Shown: positions 2,367-15,151 of the stretch, in pieces
Numbering within the stretch: the first letter of the stretch is position 1
How the letters are laid out: each line of letters begins with the position of its first letter
IMG/VR virus record: IMGVR_UViG_3300003937_000048
Coordinates: 1 to 37,598 of that record
DNA length: 37,598 bases
From: a virus
Reading direction: 5' to 3' (one strand)
The notes under the pieces: generated by a model
The model's input: only the letters and a program-made list of their open reading frames with translations
The model's database searches: none
What the model was told of the DNA's origin: nothing
Program-made: the position numbers and the translations under genes

Positions 2367-2395
2367 TTGACAAATAACATATAATATAGTATTAT
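2367..2395 (+). promoter_or_regulatory. Sigma70-type promoter for the structured RNA
   Basis: TTGACA, 17 bp, TATTAT. The predicted start is near 2402. No protein gene follows before the terminator at 2816, so the product is an RNA. Confidence 0.75.
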
Positions 2396-2401
2396 ATATA
2401 A

Positions 2402-2816
2402 CATAAAGTTGAGAAGGATAAACTCAAATAAATCAAATAATCCAAAATTTTGTTCTTTAATATTTTAAACACTTTGGAGAGGTAGATATACCCCTCCTGT
2501 GGGTGACCGAATGAGCCTGTGATGAGCGGGCTAAGGTATGCAGATCCCTGTGGTGGGGTTGGTAGAGTTCAATCGAATGAGCCAAATGACAACACCATGT
2601 CTAGTCTGTAGTTCGAAGTAGGTACACCATGAACTGATGTTCATCCCGAAAAGTTGGAGGTATACAGTAATCCTCCCCCACACCATTTTGTTTAGTTGTT
2701 GTAATCATGGGAGAAGGAAAGATATTCAAATAATTCCGCATTTAATGCTAATCTTTCCATCCCCCCTCGCCCTCTTCTAGGACTGCGATATTCGCTTATC
2801 CTGGAAGAGGGTTTTT
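2402..2816 (+). ncRNA. Structured non-coding RNA, about 415 nt, unknown class
   Basis: A transcript with its own promoter and terminator and no plausible ORF. It is GC-rich and hairpin-rich inside very AT-rich DNA. Visible helices: GGAGAGGTA with TACCCCTCC around a GATA loop (about 2475-2496, one mismatch); AGCCTG with CGGGCT (about 2514-2532); GGAGG with CCTCC (about 2656-2676); GGAAAGAT with ATCTTTCC (about 2716-2760), which encloses GCATT/AATGC. CGAATGAGCC occurs twice, near 2508 and 2574. I cannot assign it to a known large phage RNA such as ROOL or GOLLD; it is neither a tRNA cluster nor recognisable as tmRNA. Confidence 0.65.
2770..2816 (+). terminator. Intrinsic terminator of the structured RNA
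   Basis: A 13-bp stem (CCCTCTTCTAGGA at 2770-2782 with TCCTGGAAGAGGG at 2799-2811, one U-G pair) followed by TTTTTT. Confidence 0.85.
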
Positions 2817-2819
2817 TAT

Positions 2820-2848
2820 TTGACTTCTAGACCGCGCTATAGTATACT
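2820..2848 (+). promoter_or_regulatory. Sigma70-type promoter
   Basis: TTGACT, 17 bp, TATACT, starting within the T-run of the terminator before it. The predicted start is near 2855, about 40 bases before the small membrane-peptide frame. Confidence 0.65.
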
Positions 2849-3112: not shown

Positions 3113-3135
3113 CGTGCCCTGAAAAGAGCTGTGTT

Positions 3136-3208
3136 GTAAGTCTTTGACTATCAGGCACTTGCGCGCGCGGCGGCCACAAGCCATAAGTGCTTGGCTATCA
3201 AGGGATTA
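3136..3208 (-). repeat. Early stem-loop element, copy 1
   Basis: First of eleven related ~75-bp imperfect inverted repeats. The arms read AAGTCTTTGA-CTA-TCAGGCACTT and, reversed, AATCCCTTGA-TAG-CCAAGCACTT. The GC-rich core contains GGCGGCC on the + strand, so this copy faces the - strand although it precedes a + strand unit. It lies after the terminator and before the promoter of the first + strand unit. Confidence 0.85.
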
Positions 3209-3236
3209 AAAATGTTGTTTTAATTGCACTTTTTCC

Positions 3237-3265
3237 TTGCGTCAACACCTTTTGTGTGTCATTAT
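3237..3265 (+). promoter_or_regulatory. Leaderless promoter of the first early unit
   Basis: TTTTTCC, then TTGCGT, 17 bp, CATTAT, then 6 bases to ATG 3272. It starts 28 bases after stem-loop element 1. Confidence 0.75.
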
Positions 3266-3271
3266 GTATAT

Positions 3272-3649
3272 ATGATTAGGACAAAAGAAGACAAGAGATA
3301 CGATATCGACTTTAGTCGAAAAGTATTTGTATACAAGAATCTCCACAAAGATTGTTGGTCAGTTAAACAAGACGGGCTAGTCAAAGCTCATGCTGACGAA
3401 CTAGAGATGTGGGATTGCAGTTTCCGTGTCAACCAAAAAGGTAGAGAGAAAGTTCTCAAAGAAAAACGCAAGAATGTTCACGCGGGCATCTTAGGTAGAG
3501 TTGACGACTTAGGTGGTACAGTAATGATTGGGACTGAAGTTACATACAATCCGTACAAGTATAATTCTTTTGTTGACAAGAACACCGAAAATCCTGTATA
3601 CTATACAGGATTTGCAACACTAACACACAACAAAGTATTAACAGCATGA
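3272..3649 (+). CDS. Conserved phage protein (NLHKxCWS / KRKNVHAG type)
   Basis: A 125-residue protein with motifs I recognise from many unrelated phage and plasmid hypothetical proteins: FVYKNLHKDCWSVKQ near the N-terminus, then FRVNQKGREKVL and KEKRKNVHAG. Its function is not known to me. The start at 3272 is chosen because it lies exactly six bases after the -10 box; an upstream in-frame TTG at 3224 would fall before the promoter. First gene of an eight-gene unit to 5378, and its stop overlaps the next start (ATGA). Confidence 0.8.
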   Translation: MIRTKEDKRYDIDFSRKVFVYKNLHKDCWSVKQDGLVKAHADELEMWDCSFRVNQKGREKVLKEKRKNVHAGILGRVDDLGGTVMIGTEVTYNPYKYNSFVDKNTENPVYYTGFATLTHNKVLTA

Positions 3650-5378: not shown

Positions 5379-5454
5379 CGTAAGTCGTTGATGGTCAAGC
5401 ACTTCGGTGCCTGGCCGCCGCGCAGCCCAAGTGCTTGGTATTCAGTAACTTACG
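5379..5454 (+). repeat. Early stem-loop element, copy 2
   Basis: A 76-bp imperfect inverted repeat beginning right after a stop codon. Arms: AAGTCGTTGA-TGG-TCAAGCACTT and, reversed, AAGTTACTGA-ATA-CCAAGCACTT. The left arm runs into GCAC-TTCG-GTGC, a UUCG tetraloop hairpin, followed by CTGGCCGCCG. The core faces the + strand. Confidence 0.9.
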
Positions 5455-5489
5455 CAATGCATTTTTCTGCATTTTAAATCACTTTTTCC

Positions 5490-5518
5490 TTGCGTTAAAC
5501 TAAAAAGTAGCTTACTAT
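5490..5518 (+). promoter_or_regulatory. Leaderless promoter
   Basis: TTTTTCC, then TTGCGT, 17 bp, TACTAT, 6 bases, ATG 5525. Confidence 0.8.
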
Positions 5519-5524
5519 ATACTT

Positions 5525-5758
5525 ATGAACATTAACGAAGACTACGAATCAAATTCTATAATTAACGCAACCGATGCAATGGATCACTCTATGGCATTTA
5601 TCTTTGATAACTTTATTGAGCCAATGGAAAAAGAACTCTCTGAAGACCAAGCCTTGATGCTTGCAGTTATCGGAAGTACCTTTAAAATCATTGCTCAGAA
5701 AGCACAAGCCTATGAAGATATGATCGAAGGTAATCAAAACGACATACAAAGAAATTAA
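5525..5758 (+). CDS. Hypothetical 77-residue acidic protein
   Basis: Unrecognised acidic helical protein. The ATG lies six bases after the -10 box of the element-2 promoter, so its mRNA is probably leaderless. The -35 box of the next promoter begins four bases after this stop, so the next gene can be transcribed alone or by read-through. Confidence 0.7.
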   Translation: MNINEDYESNSIINATDAMDHSMAFIFDNFIEPMEKELSEDQALMLAVIGSTFKIIAQKAQAYEDMIEGNQNDIQRN

Positions 5759-6798: not shown

Positions 6799-6872
6799 CG
6801 TAAGTCGTTGACTATCAGGCAGTTAGGCGGGGTGGCCGCCGCCGTCGTAAGTGTTTGATTACCAATGATTTA
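6799..6872 (+). repeat. Early stem-loop element, copy 3
   Basis: Arms: AAGTCGTTGA-CTA-TCAGGCAGTT and, reversed, AAATCATTGG-TAA-TCAAACACTT. Core TGGCCGCCGCC on the + strand. Unlike most copies it follows a conventional terminator, so termination alone cannot be its reason to exist. Confidence 0.85.
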
Positions 6873-6900
6873 AAATCTTACTTTTAGTTGAAGTTTTTCC

Positions 6901-6929
6901 TTGCAAAAGTTAAAAAGATGCCTTACTAT
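6901..6929 (+). promoter_or_regulatory. Leaderless promoter
   Basis: TTTTTCC, then TTGCAA, 17 bp, TACTAT, 6 bases, ATG 6936. Confidence 0.8.
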
Positions 6930-6935
6930 ATACTT

Positions 6936-7652
6936 ATGATTAAAACAACTCTACTCACCGCAGGAAATGCCAAGATTACAAAAGGCGAGGCATTCGGATA
7001 TATTACCAAAGGAATTCATTTAGCTCCCGCAAATCTTTCGGGCTATGAAGTTTGCCGTTGGAGATCCAAAGGTTGCACTATGGCTTGCCTAAACACCGCA
7101 GGTCGTGGGCAAATGAATTCTGTTCAAGATTCACGCATTGCAAAGACAAAGTTATTCTTTGAACAAAGGTTTGACTTCCTTGCAAAACTATCTAAAGAAA
7201 TTACTTCTTCGATTAAGTCAGCAACTAAAAAAGGTATGCAAGCGGTTTTCCGTCCTAACCTTACAAGTGACATTGCCTGGGAAGACATTATTAATGAAGA
7301 CGGAGTCAATCTATTTGAGAAACATAGCTCGACTCAATTCTACGATTATACAAAGTCATTCAAGAGAATGAAAGCTTTTCTCAATGGTGAGTTGCCAAAC
7401 AATTATCATTTGACTTTCTCTTGCTCAGAACATAACGAAAAAATTTCTCAACTTGTTTTGTCAATGGGGGGCAATGTTGCGGTTGTCTTTCGTAACCAAT
7501 TACCTGAAACTTGGAATGGGTATCAAGTTGTCAATGGTGATGAATCAGATTTACGATTCCTTGACAAGAAAGGGGTAGTAGTTGGGCTTATAGAGAAAGG
7601 GCTTGCTAAGAAAGACGAGACAGGCTTCGTTAAAGAAGGTGTAAGTTCTTGA
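6936..7652 (+). CDS. Gp88-like phage protein
   Basis: A 238-residue protein with the pattern of the phage 'gene product 88' family: KGEAFGYITKGIHLAPA, then SGYEVCRWRSKGCTMACL with NTAGRG, a VFRPNLTSDIAWE segment, FYDYTKS, and LTFSCSEHN. The Cys cluster (C..C...C) is conserved in the family; its biochemical role is unknown to me. The start at 6936 is set by the leaderless promoter; upstream in-frame starts would lie before the -10 box. The last four codons and the stop are supplied by the left arm of element 4 (GTAAGTTCTTGA). Confidence 0.8.
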   Translation: MIKTTLLTAGNAKITKGEAFGYITKGIHLAPANLSGYEVCRWRSKGCTMACLNTAGRGQMNSVQDSRIAKTKLFFEQRFDFLAKLSKEITSSIKSATKKGMQAVFRPNLTSDIAWEDIINEDGVNLFEKHSSTQFYDYTKSFKRMKAFLNGELPNNYHLTFSCSEHNEKISQLVLSMGGNVAVVFRNQLPETWNGYQVVNGDESDLRFLDKKGVVVGLIEKGLAKKDETGFVKEGVSS

Positions 7653-7714
7653 TTATCAGGCACTTCGGTGCCTGGCCGCCGCGCGTCGTAACTGCTTGAC
7701 TGTCAACGATTTTA
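7641..7714 (+). repeat. Early stem-loop element, copy 4
   Basis: Arms: AAGTTCTTGA-TTA-TCAGGCACTT and, reversed, AAATCGTTGA-CAG-TCAAGCAGTT. It contains the same GCACTTCGGTGC hairpin and CTGGCCGCCG core as copy 2. The first 12 bases are coding: they give the end of the Gp88-like gene. Confidence 0.9.
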
Positions 7715-7740
7715 AAAATGCATTTTGTTTAATTTTTTCC

Positions 7741-8546: not shown

Positions 8547-8879
8547 ATGCACGAAAAAGTACAACAACCCGTAAATTCCTACACCGAGTTCGAGAAACTA
8601 GCATGGGGATCAAATCAACCCCTACCTGCTGTAGGATCAGAAGTTAATGTCAAGATCAATGGTATTGGTCGCTCAACTGTCCTCAAGTATTTCGTTGAGT
8701 ATGGTTTTATTGGATTGTTAGTTCAACCACAAAACCCACCCACTTGGTACATAAAGCAAAATGGTGCTGATGAACCTTGTCATGTTTTCCCTGCTGAGTG
8801 TCTTGAACTTCAAGTTCGTAAAGACGATGGGACAGCAGACAAAGAATTTTATCAATCTATGCACAACGCTATGGCATAA
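8547..8879 (+). CDS. Conserved phage protein (LPAVGSEVNVKINGIG type)
   Basis: A 110-residue protein. LPAVGSEVNVKINGIGRSTV followed by YFVEYGFIGLLV and a NPPTWYIKQNGADEPCHVF segment match a conserved small family I recognise from many phages and mobile elements; its role is not known. Mostly beta, with a conserved CHVFPAE motif. Its stop lies at the very start of element 5. Confidence 0.75.
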   Translation: MHEKVQQPVNSYTEFEKLAWGSNQPLPAVGSEVNVKINGIGRSTVLKYFVEYGFIGLLVQPQNPPTWYIKQNGADEPCHVFPAECLELQVRKDDGTADKEFYQSMHNAMA

Positions 8880-8950
8880 ACCCCTGACCACCAACCACTT
8901 AGGTGGCTGGCCGCCGCGCAGCGCAACTGCTTGGCTATCAATGACTTGCG
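8876..8950 (+). repeat. Early stem-loop element, copy 5
   Basis: The left arm is the most diverged copy (AAACCCCTGA-CCA-CCAACCACTT); the right arm, reversed, is AAGTCATTGA-TAG-CCAAGCAGTT. The left arm ends in CCAC-TTAG-GTGG, where copies 2 and 4 have GCAC-TTCG-GTGC: a compensated base-pair change that supports a real hairpin. Core CTGGCCGCCG on +. Confidence 0.85.
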
Positions 8951-8984
8951 TAACAACTTTTTTTCACTTTTCTGCATTTTTTCC

Positions 8985-9013
8985 TTGTGTTAATTCAAAA
9001 AATCGCTTACTAT
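8985..9013 (+). promoter_or_regulatory. Leaderless promoter
   Basis: TTTTTTCC, then TTGTGT, 17 bp, TACTAT, 6 bases, ATG 9020. Confidence 0.8.
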
Positions 9014-9019
9014 TATAAC

Positions 9020-9412
9020 ATGATTAAAAACGACACTCAACTAAAAGGCTTCGATGATTTGACTTTCGGTCAACATGGAGGATTCGCACCAGGCAAAGCT
9101 CGTCAAGCTCGCTTGACTTTCGGTCAACGAGACAAAGACAATCAAGATCAATTTACGATCTCGGTTGTCCAAAACCTTAATGACGGCACAGGCTTGTATG
9201 GTCACATTGATGACAACACTTACGAAGTCGCAATGTGGTTTCAAGATCGAGATACCATGCTTCCTTTGTCAAAGTATGACGATGTTCTTGCTCATCAAAC
9301 TCCTGTGCAAGTTACCCAACTTATGCACCAAGCACAACTCAATGACTTTGCTTGGGTAACTCTTCTTCACTCGTTAAGAGATGACCACAGAAAAGATTTA
9401 GACCTTGACTAA
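9020..9412 (+). CDS. Hypothetical 130-residue protein
   Basis: Unrecognised. The start is set by the promoter; an upstream in-frame non-ATG start at 8987 would overlap the -35 box. The motif LTFGQ occurs twice, at about residues 14 and 35, around a GGFAPGKARQAR basic stretch. The C-terminus is acidic (DLDLD). The -35 box of the next promoter overlaps its stop codon. Confidence 0.7.
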   Translation: MIKNDTQLKGFDDLTFGQHGGFAPGKARQARLTFGQRDKDNQDQFTISVVQNLNDGTGLYGHIDDNTYEVAMWFQDRDTMLPLSKYDDVLAHQTPVQVTQLMHQAQLNDFAWVTLLHSLRDDHRKDLDLD

Positions 9413-10101: not shown

Positions 10102-10120
10102 AGTTGGTTGAGACCCCTGT

Positions 10121-10197
10121 CCTAAGTGACTGACTATCAAGCACTTGGGGCGGGCGGCGGCCAGCCACCTAAGTGACTGAGCCTTAACAACTTACAG
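10121..10197 (-). repeat. Early stem-loop element, copy 6
   Basis: Sits between convergent + and - units. Arms: AAGTGACTGA-CTA-TCAAGCACTT and, reversed, AAGTTGTTAA-GGC-TCAGTCACTT. Core GGCGGCCAGCCACC on +, so it faces the - strand. The right arm encodes the last codons and stop of the - strand gene. Confidence 0.9.
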
Positions 10198-10435
10198 AAC
10201 CATTAAGTTCGTTTATTAGCTCGTCTAACCTTGGAAGGTCAAGTCCCGAATCGTTCCAAGCGACACCATCGGGTGTGCGGTATCCGATTGCAGAGTCTCC
10301 GCTAGTGTCTTTGATGTCGTCAACAAATTGCTGATAATCTTGACAATCCCTTGCGAAGTGGTAAAGACCTTCGTCGTTTTGAATCCAAAGGGCGACGTTC
10401 CAGGTCTGACGATTTTTCCATCCGTTATAGCTCAT
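10184..10435 (-). CDS. Conserved phage/plasmid protein (YNGWKNRQTWNVALWI type)
   Basis: An 83-residue protein. The N-terminal SYNGWKNRQTWNVALWIQND is the signature of a small family widely seen in phages and conjugative elements, often written YNGWxNxETWxVxLW. Role unknown. The start overlaps the upstream stop (ATGA). The terminal Val-Ser-Cys and the TAA are encoded by element 6 (GTAAGTTGTTAA). Confidence 0.8.
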   Translation of the reverse strand: MSYNGWKNRQTWNVALWIQNDEGLYHFARDCQDYQQFVDDIKDTSGDSAIGYRTPDGVAWNDSGLDLPRLDELINELNGSVSC

Positions 10436-10560
10436 AGGTTTTCGGTGTTGTGTCCTGCTCTCCTCATTGAGTGGAGGGCTTCTTGACGGGTCATATTGAA
10501 TCGGGACATGAGATACATGAGTAAGTCATTCCCTGTGAGTTGTTGGTTTCTGTCTGTCAT
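10432..10560 (-). CDS. Hypothetical 42-residue protein
   Basis: Short frame beginning six bases after a -10 box and ending in an ATGA overlap with the conserved YNGW gene. The helical sequence (MYLMSRFNMTRQEALHSMRR) resembles a small DNA-binding or adaptor peptide only in composition. Promoter and coupling together make it credible. Confidence 0.65.
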   Translation of the reverse strand: MTDRNQQLTGNDLLMYLMSRFNMTRQEALHSMRRAGHNTENL

Positions 10561-10566
10561 GATATA

Positions 10567-10595
10567 ATTATCTTATATTTTATCGTTTGTGTCAA
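10567..10595 (-). promoter_or_regulatory. Leaderless promoter
   Basis: CC, then TTGACA, 17 bp, GATAAT, 6 bases, ATG at 10560 (all - strand). It overlaps the end of the upstream gene. Confidence 0.75.
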
Positions 10596-11250: not shown

Positions 11251-11280
11251 TTGACTTATAGTATATAAAAGCTTTATTAT
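11251..11280 (+). promoter_or_regulatory. Orphan promoter firing into element 7
   Basis: TTGACT, 18 bp, TATTAT on the + strand. The start would fall in the left arm of stem-loop element 7; downstream DNA is antisense to the - strand gene at 11353-11565, with no + strand gene. Confidence 0.5.
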
Positions 11281-11352
11281 AAGTTGTTGATTATCAAGCA
11301 CTTATGGAATCGGCGGCCAGCCACCTAAGTGTCTGACTATTAAAGACTTATG
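11279..11352 (-). repeat. Early stem-loop element, copy 7
   Basis: Arms: AAGTTGTTGA-TTA-TCAAGCACTT and, reversed, AAGTCTTTAA-TAG-TCAGACACTT. Core CGGCGGCCAGCCACC on +. It directly abuts the stop codon of the - strand gene to its right. Confidence 0.9.
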
Positions 11353-11565
11353 TTAGAAGTCGTATTGAGCGTGGTAGCCCCAATCAATATCCTCGTTCTC
11401 AGAGAATTGCCGAAGAGCCTGGCGATCTGCTTCCTCCTCCATTCTGCGGCGGATGATTTGCTGAGACGCAATCTCGGCAAGGACGGATTCCCGTTCCTCG
11501 ATTTCGAGGTCGGTCATTCCGAAGGCGTGAGCGGTGCGGGCGAGTGAATCATTTTCGTTTTCCAT
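11353..11565 (-). CDS. Acidic helical hypothetical protein
   Basis: Unrecognised 70-residue protein, Glu/Arg-rich helix (LEIEERESVLAEIASQQ; RRRMEEEADRQALRQF) with an aromatic C-terminus (WGYHAQYDF). It is the only gene of its unit, bounded by elements 7 and 8, and leaderless by promoter geometry. More GC-rich than its surroundings. Confidence 0.7.
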   Translation of the reverse strand: MENENDSLARTAHAFGMTDLEIEERESVLAEIASQQIIRRRMEEEADRQALRQFSENEDIDWGYHAQYDF

Positions 11566-11600: not shown

Positions 11601-11626
11601 GGAATATTTTTGTTATTTTACATTTT

Positions 11627-11700
11627 ATAAGTCGTTAACTATCAACTACTTACGACGCTGGCCGCCCGCGCCCTAAGTGCCTGAAGGGCAAGGACTTACG
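11627..11700 (+). repeat. Early stem-loop element, copy 8
   Basis: Arms: AAGTCGTTAA-CTA-TCAACTACTT and, reversed, AAGTCCTTGC-CCT-TCAGGCACTT. Core CTGGCCGCCCGCG faces the + strand although the neighbouring genes are on -. One base separates it from the stop of the gene at 11702. Confidence 0.88.
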
Positions 11701-11701
11701 A

Positions 11702-12762: not shown

Positions 12763-12772
12763 GCGGACCTTT

Positions 12773-12847
12773 CGTAAGTTGTTGGTTACCAAGCACTTAC
12801 GAGGGCGGGCGCCGATGCCCTAAGTGCCTGATTATCAGTGACTTAGG
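12773..12847 (-). repeat. Early stem-loop element, copy 9
   Basis: Arms: AAGTTGTTGG-TTA-CCAAGCACTT and, reversed, AAGTCACTGA-TAA-TCAGGCACTT. The core is a variant shared only with copy 10 (GGGCGCCGAT on +, with GGGC/GCCC able to pair). It follows a perfect promoter on the + strand. Confidence 0.9.
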
Positions 12848-12859
12848 ATGTCAAGCTTT

Positions 12860-13960: not shown

Positions 13961-13969
13961 AGCCTTACT

Positions 13970-14044
13970 CGTAAGTCATTGTCTATCAAGCACTTACGAG
14001 AGCGGGCGCCGATCCCCTAAGTGCCTGACTATCAGTGACTTAGG
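13970..14044 (-). repeat. Early stem-loop element, copy 10
   Basis: Arms: AAGTCATTGT-CTA-TCAAGCACTT and, reversed, AAGTCACTGA-TAG-TCAGGCACTT. Core GCGGGCGCCGATCCCC on +, nearly the same as copy 9, so promoter plus element 9 and 10 look like a recent duplication. Confidence 0.9.
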
Positions 14045-14120
14045 AGGGCCAAAACCACACTATAAGGCAAGGTATTAGCGTAGCTGAAAAGGGTATTAGG
14101 ATTTGTATTAGGTCTAACAT
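14040..14120 (-). CDS. Tiny hydrophobic peptide (26 aa)
   Basis: ATG 14120 opens 26 codons of strongly hydrophobic sequence (LIQILIPFSATLIPCLIVWF), one membrane helix. The stop TAA belongs to the arm of element 10. It lies 28 bases after the stop of the upstream gene with no ribosome site. A TTGACA is present just upstream, but at the wrong distance for a leaderless start. Three GTATTAG repeats on + (14071-14112) are its repeated Leu-Ile codons. Confidence 0.4.
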   Translation of the reverse strand: MLDLIQILIPFSATLIPCLIVWFWPS

Positions 14121-15005: not shown

Positions 15006-15074
15006 GAAAAACTTTCGACTATCTTTTTGCACAATCCTATTGCATAGATTGGCATGGTATGTGTGCAGCTGTTT

Positions 15075-15149
15075 CGTAAGTTGTTGGCTATTAGGCACTT
15101 ATGGAAACGGCGGCCCGCCACCTAAGTGGCTGACCATCAATGACTTACG
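15075..15149 (-). repeat. Early stem-loop element, copy 11
   Basis: Arms: AAGTTGTTGG-CTA-TTAGGCACTT and, reversed, AAGTCATTGA-TGG-TCAGCCACTT. On - it reads GCCAC-TTAG-GTGGC followed by GGGCCGCCG, a perfect five-pair hairpin that shares the compensated C/G pair with copy 5. It is the last copy; none is found in the late region. Confidence 0.9.
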
Positions 15150-15151
15150 GG

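Follow-up and report, generated by a model that had tools for sequence, protein, structure and literature searches.

A divergent manA RNA from an uncultured phage lineage with the architecture of a probable free-standing noncoding RNA gene

Positions 2402-2812 of the window (the whole stretch of viral DNA analysed, 37,598 nt) probably constitute a freestanding and strongly transcribed noncoding RNA gene that is built like a miniature rRNA operon and whose product probably acts in trans, a reading to which we assign a probability of about 0.66. The RNA family, manA, is already known; what is new here is the architecture and the phage lineage that carries it. We infer that the unit is transcribed and abundant, that it makes use of Nus factors and that it acts in trans on a target, in the following manner. 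Transcription by the host RNA polymerase would begin at a strong sigma-70-type promoter and first yield a short leader, in which a small hairpin is followed by a boxA-like element, as in rRNA operons. By analogy with rRNA, this boxA would recruit NusB/NusE and shield the untranslated RNA from Rho, and the polymerase would pass the folded manA core and stop at an intrinsic terminator, while transcription of the next gene would begin anew at a separate promoter immediately behind the terminator. The product would be a stable structured RNA of ~400 nt, most likely acting in trans, with conserved loops that probably bind a host or phage factor.

The identity of the RNA is given by a cmscan of the entire window against all 4227 families of Rfam 15, in which RF01745 (manA) is the single gathering-level match (88.1 bits against a gathering cut-off of 55.2, E 2.3e-21) and takes in the whole model. 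At E values up to 1 the only companion is a match to rli24 on the minus strand, which reaches 20 bits, with a cut-off of 100, and is attributed to chance, and neither ROOL nor GOLLD was matched in this search. The sequence-only reading of this DNA had considered that the RNA may be a new family and had named an Rfam search as a check; this search found a known class, and the idea of a new family is rejected because RF01745 was matched at the gathering level over the full model. Judged by this covariance match, the window RNA is a divergent member of the manA family, and its membership is secure. The 2010 description of the family drew on marine metagenomes, T4-like cyanophages and two gamma-proteobacteria, labelled it a riboswitch candidate and classed it as cis-regulatory (Weinberg 2010, PMC2864571); accordingly, the Rfam type of RF01745 is Cis-reg. 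The alignment was revised in Rfam 14 (PMC7779021), and manA has been annotated in cyanophage S-CREM1 (PMC9964418). In the literature searched, neither a functional test of manA nor a ligand was found.

Relatives were gathered by two exact-pattern scans of IMG/VR and a subsequent covariance search of the matching records. They separate by score into two manA groups, a cyanophage type with 157-188 bits and a divergent group with 61-93 bits, and the window belongs to the latter, as do two pattern matches in public MAGs. Most 15-mer matches in genome contigs are due to chance, only two of the loci examined showing the rest of manA. Wherever the RNA was found there is one match per record, including 8/8 complete cyanophage genomes. 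The comparison set consists of 35 distinct RNAs of the window's group, all from uncultured phage contigs and akin to one another, so that the counts given for them are not independent events. These RNAs align well, and 98.3% of the cells are paired in the common fold, as compared with 86.9% in shuffles. Covariation among homologues, which had been proposed beforehand as a check, is strong, with two-sided changes in 19 of the 38 pairs and none of 500 shuffles as good, and slid controls all score far lower than the real manA pairing.

The body of the RNA is as it had been described from the letters alone, namely structured, richer in G+C and devoid of an ORF: the G+C content is 41% in 2401-2800 and 28% just upstream, the plus strand holds no ORF of at least 60 aa between 2337 and 3223, and the 415-nt RNA folds with -123.2 kcal/mol, compared to -101.4 +/- 5.6 kcal/mol for its shuffles (z -3.9, 0/100). 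The smaller elements pointed out at the same time hold in part. The GATA-loop hairpin (2476-2497) is present, but has 8 pairs with one internal A.C mismatch instead of 9 pairs, and the 8-pair helix around another hairpin is confirmed at approximately 2717-2758, outside the conserved core, but has no counterpart in relatives. The sequence CGAATGAGCC does occur twice (2508-2517 and 2573-2582), yet without conservation; we rejected this repeat as a functional element and regard it as a coincidence, because both places diverge independently in most relatives. A candidate loop-loop contact, GUGGU/ACC, shows compensatory GGC/GCC changes in two relatives (L022 and L194), but is broken in others and is not claimed here.

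The promoter and the terminator that had been proposed for the RNA are both present (Table 1), and their counterparts recur in the window's group. An upstream promoter with at least 10/12 consensus positions was found within 250 nt in 31 of the 34 relatives with enough upstream sequence, 13 of the 34 having a perfect 12/12. Downstream, a terminator (a hairpin of -10 kcal/mol or better plus a T tract within 220 nt) follows in 29 of 35 relatives; under stricter limits the count is 26/35, against 6/70 shuffles and 0/17 cyanophage-type IMG/VR loci. The terminators stand 5 to 139 nt after the core and differ in sequence as well as distance, so that they do not belong to a common switch. Just after the terminator, 28 of these 29 relatives have a promoter of at least 9/12, which is reached by 16% of random stretches, and in most of them 6-7 nt separate its -10 box from the ATG, so that the next mRNA looks leaderless. 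Since a terminator and a separate, mostly leaderless promoter intervene, manA is not in the 5' UTR of the next gene, and the cis-regulatory placement in a 5' UTR, which belongs to the annotation and is not part of the RF01745 model, is not found in most relatives. In the window itself, the promoter at 2820-2848 occupies the corresponding place after the terminator, and the next long plus-strand ORF starts at 3224. One relative from the window's own group (L025) has no detectable terminator and an ORF directly downstream, and one small-protein family (M-TLKDIL..YGYI) follows manA in many others. The earlier description of an autonomous structured RNA is thus upheld in the window and its relatives, where terminator, promoter and leader are conserved around the RNA.

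Table 1. Features of the RNA gene and dispersed palindromes, in window coordinates
Feature	Position	Strand	Basis
Promoter of the RNA, sigma-70-type, TTGACA-17-TATTAT	2367..2395	+	11/12 consensus
Small leader hairpin TTGAG-AAGGATAAA-CTCAA, at the boxB position of an rrn-type leader	2409..2427	+	sequence; weak
boxA-like element TGTTCTTTAATATTTT	2451..2466	+	14/16 identical to the relatives' consensus TGATCTTTAACATTTT
manA RNA core (RF01745, model 1-192)	2476..2686	+	covariance match; covariation in 35 relatives
Intrinsic terminator, stem-loop 2769-2812 plus T tract	2769..2819	+	-28.7 kcal/mol hairpin, then TTTTTT
Promoter of the next transcription unit, TTGACT-17-TATACT	2820..2848	+	10/12; abuts the terminator's T tract
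Palindrome copies, first set	3135-3212, 5379-5456, 6799-6876, 7640-7717, 8876-8971		
Palindrome copies, second set	10108-10195, 11277-11353, 11625-11701, 12772-12848, 13969-14045, 15074-15150		

Two observations concern the genes beyond the terminator. A short hydrophobic ORF (MPELIIILSIIYGIKLMLDYDPHC, approximately 2896-2970) lies in the window right after terminator and promoter, and short, partly hydrophobic ORFs of 42 and 30 aa are found at the equivalent place in L062 and L105; these could possibly encode small membrane peptides. Furthermore, a promoter-like block, TTTTTCCTTGCG...TACTATATACTTATGA, is repeated in the window at 3230-3275, 5483-5528, 6894-6939 and 8978-9023 and directly abuts start codons, which, taken with the 6-7 nt between -10 box and ATG in the relatives, suggests that mRNAs without a leader are frequent among these phages.

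The leader carries the likeness to rRNA operons. BoxA binds NusB/NusE and counteracts Rho, and it is found ahead of rRNA, CRISPR arrays and other long untranslated RNAs (PMC6614801, PMC7862264). Within the window the boxA-like pattern occurs only at the place given in Table 1, and most relatives have TGATCTTTAACATTTT between promoter and manA, a consensus to which the boxA of E. coli rrnB, TGCTCTTTAACAATTT, is identical at 14 of 16 positions. When leaders were compared with the E. coli rrn boxA, a match of at least 13/16 was obtained in 28/34 leaders, 3/680 shuffled leaders and 0/577 other places; the test is not circular, because the E. coli sequence, which may not be that of the host, served as the query, and the element is judged by sequence alone. 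Six of the seven exact matches in 13 records (~1.6 Mb) are located at manA, and the seventh (G053) lies in an apparent coding region and is taken as chance. Among relatives, boxA usually follows the -10 box by ~41-48 nt and is separated from manA by 8 to 163 nt; a steady spacing on one side and a variable gap on the other would be expected of a leader whose action is set by the position of the transcription start. The small hairpin upstream of boxA is found at the same place in many relatives, with the compensatory variants TCGAG/CTCGA, ACTGAG/CTCAGT and ATTAAG/CTTAAT. A hairpin of at least 5 bp is present in 29/30 leaders, but also in 42% of random 60-mers, and since short hairpins are common in this DNA its assignment as boxB is only suggestive.

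For comparison, 15 records of T4-like cyanophage isolates were considered, the promoter test being applied to the 14 with a full-length match. Each of these 14 has a promoter of at least 10/12 at the 5' end of the RNA, against a background of 3.5%, and 13 of them reach at least 11/12, a level seen in 0.4% of random stretches. The genes around manA are unrelated from phage to phage: the RNA is found after pstS, after gp23 or gp24, between regA and purL, before talC, before gp32 or after a ferredoxin gene, and in P-TIM68 the gene after manA is on the other strand. A terminator follows manA in P-HM1, MED4-213 and S-SSM5, and a weak one in P-SSM7, while in other cyanophages a CDS begins within some tens of nucleotides of manA with no terminator between (e.g. 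talC in P-RSM6 and gp32 in P-HM2). On these predictions, manA of cyanophages is also promoter-borne, and how far it is set apart from the next gene varies among phages; leader and boxA are absent from manA in the isolates compared. At several T4-like cyanophage loci (L267, L268, L269, L270, L285 and L286) the stem of a terminator hairpin upstream of manA holds the -35 box (GAGGGTGCTTGACACCCTCTTTTTTT...TATAAT), a fused terminator-promoter that sets manA apart from the preceding gene. In S-CREM1 (10215-10567), a published 37-nt match to abiF RNA is located 102 nt downstream of manA (PMC9964418, Table 4), and this match might be manA's candidate terminator hairpin rather than an abiF RNA.

That a terminator comes after the RNA, that the family carries the Rfam type Cis-reg, that manA takes a 5' UTR position in some cyanophages and that the same small-protein family follows it in many relatives could be explained by a riboswitch or attenuator in cis, in which manA would sense a ligand and control the terminator at 2769-2812 and the downstream gene. 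We consider this unlikely: a promoter for the downstream gene stands immediately behind the terminator, and this gene looks leaderless, the neighbours are heterogeneous with one copy of the RNA per genome, and in the window the next long plus-strand ORF comes only at 3224. Moreover, the core is conserved but the sequence of the terminators and their distance from it vary freely, so that no shared antiterminator is possible, and instead of a terminator that forms as the alternative to the aptamer and governs the next gene there are unrelated, variably spaced ones. As judged from these comparisons, the cis-regulatory label of manA finds no support in the window's group and appears doubtful for the family. 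The promoter of its own that manA has in both groups, and the terminator found in most of the window's group and in a minority of cyanophage isolates, would also fit an ancestral promoter-bearing cassette that serves as the leader of adjacent early genes in cyanophages and as a free RNA in the window's group, with a shared function in processing or stability and not in ligand sensing; the elaborate conserved junction exceeds the needs of a stability element, and we hold this to be quite improbable.

Conservation of boxA at a fixed distance from the promoter would likewise be expected if an abundant boxA-bearing RNA titrated host NusB/NusE (S10) off rRNA transcription, manA being a stable scaffold. 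However, cyanophage manA is without leader and boxA, so that boxA cannot be the function common to the family, and a single site per transcript is the ordinary arrangement for antitermination, which leaves little probability for a decoy. A free-standing RNA gene with an antitermination leader is thus the reading preferred for the window. Its extension to the whole family is put forward tentatively, at slightly less than even odds: manA RNAs overall would be freestanding, promoter-bearing phage RNAs that target a host process in trans, and not riboswitches, to which one uncultured lineage added an antitermination leader of the rRNA-operon type, to our knowledge the first for such a phage noncoding RNA.

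This lineage is an uncultured one and not a T4-like cyanophage, because neither the window RNA nor the sequence around it has a relative in INPHARED at the DNA level and the window's terminase has only remote matches, with less than 27% identity among the matches listed. The protein encoded at 3224-3649 matches Pfam Phage_L5_gp82 (E 2e-35), a family named after a product of mycobacteriophage L5, and that at 6888-7652 matches GP88 (E 3e-48), a family named after a phage gene product; both are a weak hint to the host side of the lineage. Two manA-bearing contigs, L194 (NZIN01000056.1) and L218 (JAQXAG010000040.1), are in two unrelated MAGs, Rickettsiales MED606 and Neomarinimicrobiota; probably these phage contigs were assigned to the wrong bins, or else the MAGs represent real hosts. 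In 190 + 149 genomes around both MAGs the boxA 16-mer has six matches, one of which falls on the manA leader in the MED606 bin, and not one of the remaining five precedes a 16S gene on the stretch examined. The window also contains ~11 dispersed, G+C-rich imperfect palindromes (GTAAGTCGTTGACTATCAAGCACTT...AAGTGCCTGACTATCA..GACTTA; Table 1) of 77-96 nt, which are 60-90% identical, mostly intergenic and change orientation near 10 kb along with gene direction. Some of them fold better than shuffles (z ~ -3.4) and others do not; they could be terminators or operator sites.

Since 2010 manA has counted as a candidate for a cis-regulatory riboswitch, and the genes tied to it (sugar, nucleotide, chaperone and photosynthesis genes) never formed one pathway. 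If manA is an independent RNA gene, its transcripts and binding partners become the question, not its ligand, and cultured Prochlorococcus phages are suitable for addressing it. The boxA leader in turn offers a concrete and testable model for how a phage could make a long untranslated RNA despite Rho.

Among known systems, ROOL and GOLLD (PMC12286853) are likewise phage-borne, structured and noncoding, but the window RNA does not match these families, is smaller and has another structure. With manA as represented by RF01745 it shares a full-length covariance match, the same helices, the conserved 3' hairpin loop (GGUAUACAGUAAUCC) and an occurrence in marine phages, whereas the RNAs of the window's group score 61-93 instead of 157-188 bits, are ~210 rather than ~190 nt long, are carried by phages without an isolated relative and not by T4-like cyanophages, and form an autonomous unit with boxA leader and terminator. 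The leaders of CRISPR arrays (cited in PMC7862264) also place a boxA ahead of a long untranslated RNA, which in the window is one structured element of ~400 nt. The likeness to the E. coli rrnB leader (PMC6614801) is known from the nucleotides only, does not include boxC and concerns a phage noncoding RNA downstream in place of rRNA; it lies in the order of promoter, putative boxB hairpin and boxA, in the boxA itself, with its 14/16 identity to the group consensus, and in the spacing between -10 box and boxA, which is 37 nt in rrnB and ~45 nt in the window's group.
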